IMG/VR virus record: IMGVR_UViG_3300025879_000051
Location: 1-35,628 of that record
Length of the DNA stretch: 35,628 nt
Source of the DNA: a virus
Reading direction: 5' to 3' (one strand)
Shown: piece by piece, positions 3,006 through 8,488 of the stretch
Position numbering within the stretch: position 1 is the stretch's first letter
How the letters are laid out: every line of letters begins with the position of its first letter
Notes under the pieces: generated by a model
The model's database searches: none
Told to the model about the DNA's origin: nothing
What the model saw: only the letters and a program-made list of their open reading frames with translations
Made by a program: the position numbers and the translations under genes

Positions 3006-3298
3006 TGGCTGAACAACAAATGGAAAACCTGATCGATTTGGGCAAATACCCACGTAACGATGTAGAGTTAATCTCACGTGAATTCCTTCGAATCGTTTAT
3101 CTCGAAACCCTTGATGCGTTCGTTCAAGAGCAGCAGAAAGAAACACCAGATAAGCAAGTGATAGGTAATATGGAAGATGCTCTCAAAGGTCTCGAAACTA
3201 CTATCATCATCTTGGATGGCGGTCCTGAGTTCTTAGAGTATGTGCATGCTGATGCTGATACCTCTGTGGCTAATGATGACGAATTTGATCGTTTCTAA
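3005..3298 (+). CDS. Unassigned acidic early protein, 97 aa
   Basis: A 97-residue acidic, mostly helical protein that begins MAEQQMENLIDLGKYP and ends with a run rich in Asp and Glu (DDEFDRF). No catalytic or binding motif is visible. GAGGA about 10 nt upstream and the one-base overlap with the preceding stop support the ATG at 3005. It is followed after 10 nt by the DUF2693-like gene, all in the same early transcript. Function unknown. Confidence 0.75.
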   Translation: MAEQQMENLIDLGKYPRNDVELISREFLRIVYLETLDAFVQEQQKETPDKQVIGNMEDALKGLETTIIILDGGPEFLEYVHADADTSVANDDEFDRF

Positions 3299-4381: not shown

Positions 4382-5329
4382 ATGTCTTTTGCAAATCTAA
4401 AGTCCAAGTCTATGGACATCAACTCTTTAGTATCAGCTGCCCAAGAAGCATCAGGTGCTAATCAAACATCTACTAACAAATACCAAGACGATCGTAAATG
4501 GAAGCCAACTGTTGATGACAGTGGTAACGGCTATGCTGTATTGCGTTTCTTGCCTGCAGGTGAAGGTCAAGATCTTCCGTGGGTACGATACTGGGATCAC
4601 GCATTCAAAGGTCCGACCGGTCAGTGGTATATCGAGCGCTCACTAACAACTATTGGTCAAGCTGACCCACTAGGTGAAATGAACTCTCGTTTGTGGAATA
4701 GTGGTAACGAAGAAGATAAAGAAACTGTACGTCGTCAGAAGCGTCGACTGCACTATATCGCCAACGTTCTAATTGTCAACGATCCTGCTAACCCAGCAAA
4801 TAACGGTAAAGTTATGTTGTATGAGTTTGGTAAGAAGATCTTCGATAAGATCATGGATATGATGCAGCCAGAATTCCCTGGAGAGACTCCTGTCAATCCA
4901 TTCGACTTCTGGAAAGGTGCTGACTTTGAATTGAAGATTCGTAAGGTGGAAGGCTATCGTAACTATGACAAGTCTGGGTTCAAAGCTCCAGCTGCATTGT
5001 TCGAGGGCGATGATGCTCGATTAGAGTCTACCTACAATTCGATGTATGATCTCAATGAGTTCGTTACTCCTGACTTCCCTGGAGCACATGATCCTAAGTG
5101 GTTCAAGAGCTACGAGGAATTGAAGTCTCGATTGGAAACTGTTCTAGGTATGGCTACCGGTACAGGTGCTACGCTGAGAAACGAAGCGATTGCTCAATCA
5201 GCAGAAGTGGCTCCTATTCGTGAAGCTAACGAACCGACCATAGTATCAGCTGAACCTGCAGCGGCTATTGCATCCGCTGACGAAGACGACACCTTGTCAT
5301 ACTTCGCTCAGATGGCTCAGCAAGACTAA
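4382..5329 (+). CDS. gp32: Single-stranded DNA-binding protein gp32
   Basis: A 315-aa homologue of T4 gp32 (301 aa), which coats ssDNA during replication, recombination and repair. Visible features are an N-terminal basic LAST-like segment (LKSKS near residues 6-10), the OB-fold core with QKRRLHYIANVLIVNDP, GKVMLYEFGKKIFDKI and FELKIRKVEGYRNYDKS, and an acidic Asp/Glu-rich C-terminal tail (ADEDDTLSYF) for partner binding. The T4 zinc site (His plus three Cys) is missing: the equivalent region WYIERSLTTIGQADPLGEMN contains no Cys, and I see none in the protein. That matches what I recall for cyanophage gp32. A late and an early promoter lie just upstream and a terminator just downstream. Confidence 0.95.
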   Translation: MSFANLKSKSMDINSLVSAAQEASGANQTSTNKYQDDRKWKPTVDDSGNGYAVLRFLPAGEGQDLPWVRYWDHAFKGPTGQWYIERSLTTIGQADPLGEMNSRLWNSGNEEDKETVRRQKRRLHYIANVLIVNDPANPANNGKVMLYEFGKKIFDKIMDMMQPEFPGETPVNPFDFWKGADFELKIRKVEGYRNYDKSGFKAPAALFEGDDARLESTYNSMYDLNEFVTPDFPGAHDPKWFKSYEELKSRLETVLGMATGTGATLRNEAIAQSAEVAPIREANEPTIVSAEPAAAIASADEDDTLSYFAQMAQQD

Positions 5330-5355: not shown

Positions 5356-5380
5356 AGCCACCTTCGGGTGGCTTTTTTTT
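5356..5380 (+). terminator. Rho-independent terminator after gene 32
   Basis: GCCACC (5357-5362), a TTCG tetraloop, GGTGGC (5367-5372) and eight T (5373-5380). It ends rightward transcription from the early cluster. The stop codon of the convergent tape-measure candidate (5379-5381) overlaps the T-run. Read leftward the hairpin lacks a T-run, so it may only weakly stop the opposing transcript. Confidence 0.92.
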
Positions 5381-6944
5381 ATCTGGTACCTTGGTCGAAA
5401 GAATCCATAGTAGAAATACCACCACCCCAAGAGACTGCCATTGAGCCATTGCTAACATTGGTGGTTGATGGAGCGCTAACTACTATTGGTGCTTGATTAT
5501 TTGATACAGAATTCATCTCTGTAGTAGAGTTGTTGATTGTCTGTCCTGACTGATTAGGTTGTACACCAGCAATCTTACTAATACCCGTTAGCTTAGCAGT
5601 AACGTCGTCGATCTGACCTGACTTCAATCCAGGCTTGAAATCCATCTCTGGCAATCCGTCAAACCAACCTGAGCCGACTGTACTTCCTTCCCACATGGCA
5701 TTCATCAAATATATCGTCTTAGCTGTTGCTTTGGCGAACGACTCCATTTGATCTGAATAGTGATCGAAGTTTACATTGTTAATTGCATTGATGCCTGAGC
5801 CAAGATTCATGAACGAGCTAGCCAGTCTATCAACGTTTTGTATGGTAGCGTCACCGATGTTGAGTTTCTTTAAGTTGTTCGCTGTTTGAGTGAAGATGTC
5901 ATCGTCTTCGCTTTTACCAAATATAAAGTCTAATGCTTTGCCTGCTAGGTCACCTATAACGCCAATCCCTTTAGCGCCATATAACAATGCCATACCAGCT
6001 CCAATGGCAGACATACCAGCACCAACAGCTATTAGGTTTGCACCGTCAAGTTCCGTTAACGGATTGAGTCCGTCGGCAACATTTTTCAGTAGAGGACCAA
6101 GTTCTTCGCCAGTGATACCCATCTTAGAGATTAATTCACCTATACCAGCAAACCCACCAAAGAATGCTGCGGTAGCTGCGCCCATATTGGCCATCATTGG
6201 TACTAATAAAGGGTTAGCTCCAATCACCGCTCCTGCTGCGAATAATGCGCCCAACGCAATTAATGACTTACCAGAGAAAGCATTGAGTCCTTCACCGAGA
6301 GCTATCATCGTAGTTTTAAGCGAGGTACCGTCAGTATTCAAGAAACTCATGCCTTTGTCGCCAAGAGCTAGACCAGCAAAGAAACCGCCGATACCAGCAC
6401 CCATTGCCGTCATACCAAGAGCAGCTTTAGCCGCATTGCCAACACCTGCTAGCGCGCCGAGGATACCACCACCAGCCATGATACCGCCCATGATCATAAG
6501 ACCGCGCTCTGGAGTTTCATCGAACGCTTCACCAAGAGTAATCATATTTCTCTTGGTCGCCTGCATGTCAGTACCAATCAATGCTTGAGCTTTATCGCCC
6601 AAAGCAAGACCGGTAAAGAACCCACCAATACCAAAGCCCATCGCAGCGAGCCCAACGCCCATTCCGACACCTTTAGCCGCAACTCCAACACCAGCAGCCA
6701 GAGCTTTTTTCATGCTGCCTTCTGGTCTTGCACCTCCACCTGAGGAACCAGATCCAGAGGACGCACCGCTACCCCCGGATCCTTCACCGGCGTCGCGTTG
6801 ATTCTCTAAGTCGTCGAGTCTATTTTGCTCTTGCTTTATAGACTCGCTTTGAAGGTGTTCATGTATATTGCCGATAATATGATTATTCTCAGCAGCAATA
6901 TAATTAGACTCCTTCATCTCCTCGACTAGTTTTGAGAATGACAT
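5379..6944 (-). CDS. Candidate tail tape-measure protein, 521 aa
   Basis: A 521-aa protein with a helical, coiled-coil-like N-terminus (residues 1-50), a Gly/Ser linker (about 53-77), and then hydrophobic Gly/Ala-rich segments. These include at least two clear and one weaker repeat, each with the pattern MG-x-G-I-GGFF-x-GLALGDK, then T-x-x-M-I-x-LGE, then a second hydrophobic hairpin. A polar, Ser/Asn-rich C-terminus follows (after about 440). Membrane-insertable segments between coiled coils are typical of tape-measure proteins. The gene follows gp26 and the gp51-like frame directly, the position tape-measure genes take after frameshifted chaperones. T4 gp29 has a comparable length (590 aa), but I cannot align the two. 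The ATG is 3 nt after the preceding stop. The name is inference. Confidence 0.55.
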   Translation of the reverse strand: MSFSKLVEEMKESNYIAAENNHIIGNIHEHLQSESIKQEQNRLDDLENQRDAGEGSGGSGASSGSGSSGGGARPEGSMKKALAAGVGVAAKGVGMGVGLAAMGFGIGGFFTGLALGDKAQALIGTDMQATKRNMITLGEAFDETPERGLMIMGGIMAGGGILGALAGVGNAAKAALGMTAMGAGIGGFFAGLALGDKGMSFLNTDGTSLKTTMIALGEGLNAFSGKSLIALGALFAAGAVIGANPLLVPMMANMGAATAAFFGGFAGIGELISKMGITGEELGPLLKNVADGLNPLTELDGANLIAVGAGMSAIGAGMALLYGAKGIGVIGDLAGKALDFIFGKSEDDDIFTQTANNLKKLNIGDATIQNVDRLASSFMNLGSGINAINNVNFDHYSDQMESFAKATAKTIYLMNAMWEGSTVGSGWFDGLPEMDFKPGLKSGQIDDVTAKLTGISKIAGVQPNQSGQTINNSTTEMNSVSNNQAPIVVSAPSTTNVSNGSMAVSWGGGISTMDSFDQGTR

Positions 6945-6947
6945 TTG

Positions 6948-7133
6948 TTATTGACCTTTTCGTTTTGACCTTTCGGTTCGTTCTTTAATATCTTCTATTA
7001 ACATCGTGAGATATATCTCCCTCTCCCAAGGCATCATCATTTCAACCTCTTCTAGCGAATAATTGTAATTATTCATTAGCTGGAAATTGACCTGATAATA
7101 ATTCGCCAAGTTATCATGGGAGAGGTTGATTAA
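6948..7133 (-). CDS. gp51: gp51-like hub assembly protein, probably made as a gp26-gp51 frameshift fusion
   Basis: Open frame between a TGA at 7140-7142 and a TAA at 6948-6950. From 7133 it encodes about 61 residues, including LSHDNLANYY, a YSLEEVEMMMPWEREIYLTML core and a basic end KERTERSKRKGQ. The MMPWEREIY motif is what I recognise from gp51 (baseplate hub assembly catalyst) annotations in cyanophage-like phages. There is no ATG with a ribosome-binding site: the first ATG is at 7076 (42-aa product, no SD, cutting off the conserved-looking N-terminal part) and a TTG lies at 7109. The frame is -1 relative to gene 26 and joins it at a run of eight T (7132-7139), so translation as a C-terminal extension of gp26 is the best explanation. 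Confidence 0.65.
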   Translation of the reverse strand, partial: LINLSHDNLANYYQVNFQLMNNYNYSLEEVEMMMPWEREIYLTMLIEDIKERTERSKRKGQ

Positions 7134-7837
7134 AAAAAATCATCCATCCCCTTCAACGTTCTCACGTTGTCGTGTCCACAGCTTTTACACTTGTATTCAA
7201 TATCTTTGTATACAAACGGTATGCCGTTAATAAAAGAAGCTAGCATTTCATACTGTGATGTAGTCATAGATTCAACGAAAGACACTACATCTTCACGCGA
7301 CTCTTGTTTCAAATCAATCCGCTCATCATCAGTGTGTACCGAATCCATGCAAATCAACATCAATTCAAAAATAATCTCAGCTTGGGATTTTGCTCCCACT
7401 AAAGCAGCATTATCCAAAAACTCTTCGTAAGTAGGGTATCGCATTTTAATCGCGATGCTCTGACTAACCTGTACAATAGGATCTACTACAGGATTAGCGA
7501 TCTGTACACTATCAAGCTCAACCTTCATTACATTGTCAGCTTGACATTCTGAGCAAGGCAATTGAATCTCGATTGTCTCACCTACCGACTTAGATCGGAT
7601 CATCGTAAATAGATAATCCACGTCAAATGTCGTCAGCTGTGTCTTTACATCGACCTCAACACACGCCTTAATAGTTCGTGTAATTGCTCGAAGCAAATCC
7701 TTGCGATCTTGTGTCTCAAGTGCAATCAATAAGTTCTTTTGTTCCTTCACTAAAAACGGACGGTATGTCACTAGTTGTCCAGTAGAAGGAATAGTCACTT
7801 CATAACTCGGTGTCGAGTTTAATATCGGTAATGCCAT
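7130..7837 (-). CDS. gp26: Baseplate hub subunit gp26
   Basis: A 235-aa protein (T4 gp26 is 208 aa) with the family features YRPFLVKEQKNLLIALE (residues 25-41), a helix ending in KACVEV, FDVDYLFTMIRSKSVGE (71-87), and two CxxC pairs, C95/C98 and C217/C220 (YKCKSCGHDN), that may bind one zinc. In T4 gp26 belongs to the baseplate hub assembly pathway. The ATG has AGGG 9 nt upstream. The chain ends GMDDFF at a T-run that overlaps the gp51-like frame. The gene lies 18 nt after the tube-like gene in the same leftward late operon. The CxxC pairs and the position before a tape-measure candidate also fit a chaperone-like role. Confidence 0.85.
   Translation of the reverse strand: MALPILNSTPSYEVTIPSTGQLVTYRPFLVKEQKNLLIALETQDRKDLLRAITRTIKACVEVDVKTQLTTFDVDYLFTMIRSKSVGETIEIQLPCSECQADNVMKVELDSVQIANPVVDPIVQVSQSIAIKMRYPTYEEFLDNAALVGAKSQAEIIFELMLICMDSVHTDDERIDLKQESREDVVSFVESMTTSQYEMLASFINGIPFVYKDIEYKCKSCGHDNVRTLKGMDDFF
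7132..7139 (-). other. Putative -1 frameshift site (T8) linking gp26 and gp51
   Basis: The coding strand reads GATGA then eight T then AA. In the gene 26 frame this is GAT-TTT-TTT-TAA. A -1 slip on T-TTT-TTT leads to TTA-ATC-AAC and on through the gp51-like frame to 6948. A run of eight T can also cause RNA-polymerase slippage with the same result. A weak 6-bp A/T-rich hairpin (7111-7116 with 7093-7098) lies downstream. Confidence 0.6.
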
Positions 7838-7855: not shown

Positions 7856-8488
7856 TTAAATGTCGAACTTCAATCCTCGGTTCAACGTTGATAATAAATC
7901 TTGCTTCACTTTCCAGTTTGTATAAGAGAACTGGACCGTCATCTCAACCAACCCATCTGGATCGTTCGATAACTCAATTGCTGATAATGACGTTGGAAAT
8001 GCATCGTTTAGCTCGACCGTATATATCGAGTTTGCGAAGAAGTCAAATCCGATGTTGAATATACCACCAATACTTATTTCTTTGCTATACTCTTGACCGA
8101 GGATACCTGTGCCATCTGGTTTACGTAGTTGGTGGATAGTAACGCGTTTAGCGTAGTCCTTTTTATACCCCACCTCTCCTCGCTTCTCATCAACCATCAA
8201 TTTACGCCATTCATCGAAATACAGCTTAGTATGATAATCGTTGAGAACGTAGAACGTCATTGATACGTCATCGACTAAGAAACCATCTACGATCTTCTCG
8301 TTGAACAACCCAATAGGCAGCTCTTTAGTGGTAATCTGCTTACCAGGCATAGTAACACTCTTACACATCAAGTTAAGAGTACGGCCGGTAAACCTACCGA
8401 TGCTAGGTAGTTGCACAGCAAACTGATTGGTCATTGCTAGACCTTTTGCTCTGCTAACCTGTGTTTTTAGTTGTTCTATACTAGCCAT
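7856..8488 (-). CDS. gp54: Tail-tube-fold baseplate protein, probable tube initiator gp54
   Basis: The 210-aa product looks like a member of the gp19/gp48/gp54 tube fold: N-terminal residues 20-60 read TNQFAVQLPS and LMCKSVTMPGKQITTKELP, followed by VDDVSMTFYVLNDYHTKLYFDEWRKLMVD, the strand-helix pattern with the W that tube proteins show. The C-terminus ends with a strand pattern, MTVQFSYTNWKV. gp48 is encoded separately at 9677, and this gene sits among baseplate genes rather than next to a sheath gene, so gp54 (the tube initiator) is the best guess. It is shorter than T4 gp54 (320 aa). A second tube protein is the alternative. The start overlaps the upstream gene by 8 nt. Confidence 0.6.
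   Translation of the reverse strand: MASIEQLKTQVSRAKGLAMTNQFAVQLPSIGRFTGRTLNLMCKSVTMPGKQITTKELPIGLFNEKIVDGFLVDDVSMTFYVLNDYHTKLYFDEWRKLMVDEKRGEVGYKKDYAKRVTIHQLRKPDGTGILGQEYSKEISIGGIFNIGFDFFANSIYTVELNDAFPTSLSAIELSNDPDGLVEMTVQFSYTNWKVKQDLLSTLNRGLKFDI

Follow-up and report, generated by a model that had tools for sequence, protein, structure and literature searches.

Introduction

Programmed frameshifting in tail assembly chaperone (TAC) genes is an established feature of lambda-type phages, and the slippery site of lambda itself is G GGA AAG. In the lambda pair gpG/gpGT, a minority of ribosomes make a C-terminal extension (PMC5009743). In the Vandenendeviridae and Andersonviridae, a -1 frameshift at the poly-T motif GTTTTT yields a short form, TAC-N, and a long form, TAC-NC (PMC12846349). 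PMC10885494 and PMC12846349 attribute the identification of the tail chaperones of T4-like phages to Vladimirov, Gautam and Davidson (Virology 2022, doi 10.1016/j.virol.2021.11.003); according to these citing papers, some T4-like phages carry a short gene and a separate long fused gene, and PMC12846349 ascribes to the same study the poly-T slippery sites of their TAC-N genes. Here, we analyze the whole 35,628-nucleotide stretch of the IMG/VR record IMGVR_UViG_3300025879_000051 (the window), from an uncultured marine T4-type phage, in which a gp26 gene ends on a run of T's at the beginning of a gp51-like frame. All features of this locus lie on the minus strand and are given in window coordinates. 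We predict with high confidence that the gp26-gp51 locus is one gene producing two forms of the tail assembly chaperone through programmed -1 ribosomal frameshifting, gp26 probably being TAC-N and gp26-51 TAC-NC.

The locus resembles lambda gpG/gpGT in that a minority of ribosomes would provide the C-terminal extension, but differs in its slippery site (U UUU UUN, with a stop codon close behind) and in its longer gp26 domain (235 aa), which carries zinc-ribbon-like cysteines. It would share with the Vandenendeviridae and Andersonviridae a -1 shift at a poly-T motif giving TAC-N and TAC-NC, although those belong to other phage families and use another motif. With the T4-like chaperones of Vladimirov et al. 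2022, as described by the citing papers, it would share the short and long forms and a poly-T slippery site in the TAC-N gene. The original prediction knew of no report of frameshifting in T4-type tails; that study, as cited in PMC10885494 and PMC12846349, came earlier, and the locus is a well-supported further instance of a published idea rather than a new mechanism.

A conserved slippery heptamer at the gp26-gp51 junction

The gp26 gene (7130..7837) encodes a protein of 235 aa, assigned as the predicted short tail assembly chaperone from its matches to PF12322 (E=6e-56) and phrog_150 (E=5.5e-58) and from the predicted fold of its N-terminal part. Its 3' end reads GAT TTT TTT TAA, the eight T's lying at 7139-7132, just as had been described. 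The slippery heptamer T TTT TTT occupies 7133..7139 of this run and is directly followed by the 0-frame stop codon TAA (7132-7130); the single further run of at least seven T's on the minus strand of the window is found at the contig edge. The gp51-like frame is indeed in -1 phase and opens just past the TGA at 7142-7140, extending from 7139 over 63 codons (FFLINLSHDNLANYY...) until it meets a stop at 6948. This gp51 domain (TAC-C; 6948..7139) matches phrog_634 (E=2e-22), and the peptide also matches the gp26 family profile, phrog_150, at positions 231-282, just where the window gp26 comes to its end (position 232). The predicted TAC-NC would thus comprise the 235 residues of gp26 followed by LINLSHDN... 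(7133 to 6951), for a total of 296 aa.

Conservation of the junction was examined in 175 dereplicated relatives, namely, cyanophages and phages of Pelagibacter, Methylophilales, Vibrio, Aeromonas, Caulobacter and Rhizobium, sorted into four groups (n=27 for the window's own group). An in-frame T TTT TTN heptamer stands at the end of gp26 in 171 of the 175 (TTTTTTC in 126, TTTTTTT in 42 and TTTTTTG in 3), and its presence in the same frame at so many homologous junctions argues that the arrangement is not due to chance. The codon before the heptamer is always NNT (GAT, AGT, TCT, GGT, AAT or GCT) despite a varying amino acid, and never GAC; the naive background probability of this pattern, computed from codon use in the same genes, is ~1e-34, a value that is indicative only since the sequences are related. 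Within the window group, the Asp adjoining the T-run is encoded by GAT in 27/27, while for the Asp preceding it GAC is used in 14 and GAT in 12.

The reading frame is equally constrained. The -1 frame reads on into gp51 in all dereplicated relatives except one, and in 80/80 IMG/VR relatives the last codons of gp26 are TTT TTT and a stop, and the -1 frame leads uninterrupted into gp51. Isolates infecting each of the host groups listed above carry T TTT TTC, T TTT TTT or T TTT TTG with gp51 in -1. Moreover, conserved gp51-frame residues begin right at the T-run. The T-run, the -1 phase and the extension of conserved-looking gp51 sequence back to the run, all three noted by the original prediction, are found among relatives.

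T4 gp51 as the counterpart of the predicted fusion

In 2022, Vladimirov and colleagues reportedly named genes 26 and 51 as the T4 tail chaperones. Both T4 products belong to PF12322 and phrog_150, but only T4 gp51 covers nearly the whole phrog_150 profile, including its C-terminal part. In profile alignments made with hhalign, the predicted frameshift fusions and T4-type gp51 are colinear for 243 columns that run across the shift point (E=4.4e-22), whereas the alignment of the fusions with T4-type gp26 stops at that point (E=9.3e-23). T4 gp51 is a full-length separate gene and a paralogue of T4 gp26, and these alignments make it the counterpart of the fusion. The predicted short and long forms share the N-terminal domain, and T4 gp26 and gp51 would be their separately encoded equivalents.

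The two arrangements differ in how the forms are obtained. T4 genes 26 and 51 are separate, divergent paralogues located on opposite strands, and in T4-type phages with a separately encoded gp51, the gp26 gene carries TTC TTT (as in T4 itself) or other codons in place of the heptamer. Related phages would hence have reached two solutions to one need, a frameshift within one gene or two paralogous genes. Accordingly, the frameshift logic proposed earlier for T4-type tails is supported for window-type phages, with their heptamer and -1 phase, but does not extend to T4. It would also account for an observation of Sullivan et al. 2010 (PMC3037559), namely, that the gp51 of cyanophages and marine vibriophages has no equivalent of the ~200 N-terminal residues of T4 gp51; this gp51 would look truncated because the missing part is gp26, joined to it by the shift. 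No joined product is annotated in the frameshift-type isolate records that we examined, so that neither these records nor the proteomic searches relying on them include the predicted long protein. Separately, one T4-type gp51 gene (L262, 2501-3250) is broken mid-gene by a single frame change, which is probably a sequencing indel.

Predicted structures of gp26 and gp51

Structures were modeled with AlphaFold2, T4-type gp51 being used in place of the frameshift fusion. The window gp26 model was obtained with a pLDDT of 88 and a pTM of 0.81. Over its first ~87-94 residues, the best matches among solved structures were 3fgx (Z 7.6), the HK97 tail assembly chaperone 2ob9 (Z 7.4) and YqbN 3klu (Z 6.9), the last of which we take to be a chaperone-like protein of a prophage element; the next rows scored 5.0 and 3.9. 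Foldseek alone returned no significant match of the gp26 model in the PDB. The T4-type gp51 model (pLDDT 85) has a helical C-terminal part, and no solved structure matched its fold with a Z of more than 3.6; the T4 gp51 sequence likewise had no match in the PDB. These models are suggestive of a chaperone-like N-terminal domain in gp26.

Signals flanking the slippery site

Upstream of the heptamer, with a spacer of 8-10 nt, lies the Shine-Dalgarno (SD)-like sequence AAGGGG (7153-7148), whose predicted anti-SD pairing reaches -7.5 kcal/mol in the window. Mean affinity for the 16S anti-SD peaks at -21 to -12 nt from the site in all four groups of relatives, with group minima of -4.9 to -7.2 kcal/mol compared with means of -0.2 to -0.8 elsewhere. 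Codon choice follows the same trend. The Glu codon at the SD-like place is GAG in 77 relatives and GAA in 22, against a background GAA:GAG ratio of 2764:1283, and where Glu is encoded by GAA the next Gly codon is GGG in 16/22 (background, 1/48), so that AGGG is kept. The SD-like element is thus a probable internal stimulator of the shift.

Downstream, synonymous constraint was observed in relatives over a C-rich stretch, GCC CTC TCN, formed by -1 frame codons 4-6 past the heptamer (~7127-7119 in the window, minus strand). The Ala at codon 4 is mostly GCC, and CTC makes up 80 of the ~119 Leu codons at codon 5 (background, 5%). No conserved stem accounts for this constraint. Pairing between the upstream GAGGG and the downstream CCCTC was considered and rejected, since a genome's own pairs were no better than swapped pairs. 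One tentative idea, which we hold to be possible though on balance doubtful, is that T4-type phages share a cassette of three parts, namely, an SD-like AGGG, U UUU UUN and, ~6-14 nt further on, a CCUCUC constrained at synonymous sites. Such a cassette would lack a conserved stem, and its C-rich part would stimulate or tune slippage by a non-hairpin route. No report of an SD-like stimulator or of a C-rich constraint at such sites was found in the literature searched, which did not include the text of Vladimirov et al. 2022 itself, and both may be additions to published work.

Proposed mechanism

In the model that we favor, the majority of ribosomes would read gp26 and stop at TAA, releasing TAC-N. 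A minority would be held over the U-run by the following stop codon and by the SD-like AAGGGG ~8-10 nt upstream, slip by -1 on U UUU UUU and continue in the gp51 frame to produce the 296-residue gp26-51. If the pair works like lambda gpG/gpGT, the shared domain would coat the tape-measure protein, and the extra C-terminal domain would recruit tail-tube or hub subunits. We infer that slippage occurs and how often, as well as the stimulating effect of the SD-like element and a role as chaperone; the conserved heptamer, the frame, the lack of a usable gp51 start and the homology of the fusion to T4 gp51 are seen in the sequences, and a model supports the chaperone-like fold. The heptamer, the fixed phase, the lack of a usable gp51 start, the colinearity with T4 gp51 and the chaperone-like predicted fold together support what had been predicted, that is, a -1 frameshift giving gp26 as the short and gp26-51 as the long member of a G/GT-type chaperone pair.

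Weighing of alternative explanations

The usual annotation presents gp51 as a separate short open reading frame, and the protein could in principle be made independently, by initiation at TTG 7109 or at ATG 7076 or through reinitiation once gp26 has terminated. An ATG does overlap the gp26 stop in seven loci, those of the Vibrio, Rhizobium and Caulobacter types, and reinitiation is possible in such phages; it is not in the window group, where this overlap occurs in 0/27, a good SD precedes a -1 frame start in 0/27, and no conserved gp51 start position was found. In the window, TTG 7109 and ATG 7076 are the only ATG, GTG or TTG codons among the first 26 of the -1 frame, and SD pairing is weak at both (0.8 and -3.2 kcal/mol, respectively), in agreement with the earlier claim that gp51 has no ATG with a ribosome-binding site. 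In addition, -1 frame codon 21 varies between M and L among close relatives, and independent expression fits poorly with conserved residues that begin at the T-run, with the retention of the heptamer and with a T4 counterpart that is a full-length fusion. We therefore consider an independent gp51 very unlikely.

The two forms could also arise from slippage of RNA polymerase on the eight consecutive T's of the window, an alternative route raised by the original prediction. This is disfavored because most relatives (126/171) have T TTT TTC, that is, seven T's or fewer ended by C; furthermore, the strict in-frame placement, the NNT before the run and the SD-like element at a fixed spacing fit ribosomes, leaving polymerase slippage with only a slim probability. 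Homopolymers are indel-prone, and the frame break might be suspected to be a sequencing or assembly error, but the same junction recurs in 80 contigs and in isolate genomes, and TAA, TAG and TGA all serve as 0-frame stops in the window group. Conservation refutes an indel, whose probability we regard as negligible.

Several observations nevertheless weigh against programmed ribosomal frameshifting or its proposed details. The seven loci with an ATG over the stop could express a separate gp51 through coupling. The heptamer is absent from four more distant phages (L093, L096, L097 and L102), and in the cyanophage S-SCSM1 (L087) the sequence past the heptamer (3200-3240) is changed in length by 11 nt, which closes its -1 frame shortly beyond the site. 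Part of the SD-like peak is accounted for by a conserved Gly codon. A conserved 3' stem, sought in alignments of the four groups, gave no consensus structure beyond that of column shuffles, and a long-range stem of the window (z -2.4) was rejected as a stimulator, as it is not kept in relatives. Finally, structural Z values of 7-8 are modest by themselves, the best rows all being under Z 8.

Some of these phages present further peculiarities. The four without the heptamer (Cygsa01, Vibrio D524 and two Ackermannviridae) keep a -1 gp51-like frame and have NTT TTC at the corresponding place, and three of them also have an ATG overlapping the gp26 stop. In S-SCSM1, gp51 lies in the +1 frame and stops interrupt the -1 frame, such that the usual shift cannot yield a fusion; this may be real or a sequence error. 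S-WAM1, considered as a candidate for a natural in-frame gp26-gp51 fusion, proved not to have one.

Neighboring genes

Just upstream of gp26 lies a gene for a tail tube or tube initiator-like protein (7856..8488; phrog_45, E=1e-35). Right after gp51, a gene of 521 aa with hydrophobic Gly/Ala-rich repeats (5379..6944) is a tape-measure candidate. It had no Pfam match and no significant PHROG match, and shows weak similarity to the gene at the same place in phage C48C1. The described position of the gp26-gp51 pair directly upstream of this gene is confirmed, while the tape-measure identity itself is deduced mainly from that position. A run of eight T's is also present on the plus strand at 5373-5380, between the tape-measure candidate and a convergent gp32-like gene (4382-5329), and is possibly part of a terminator.
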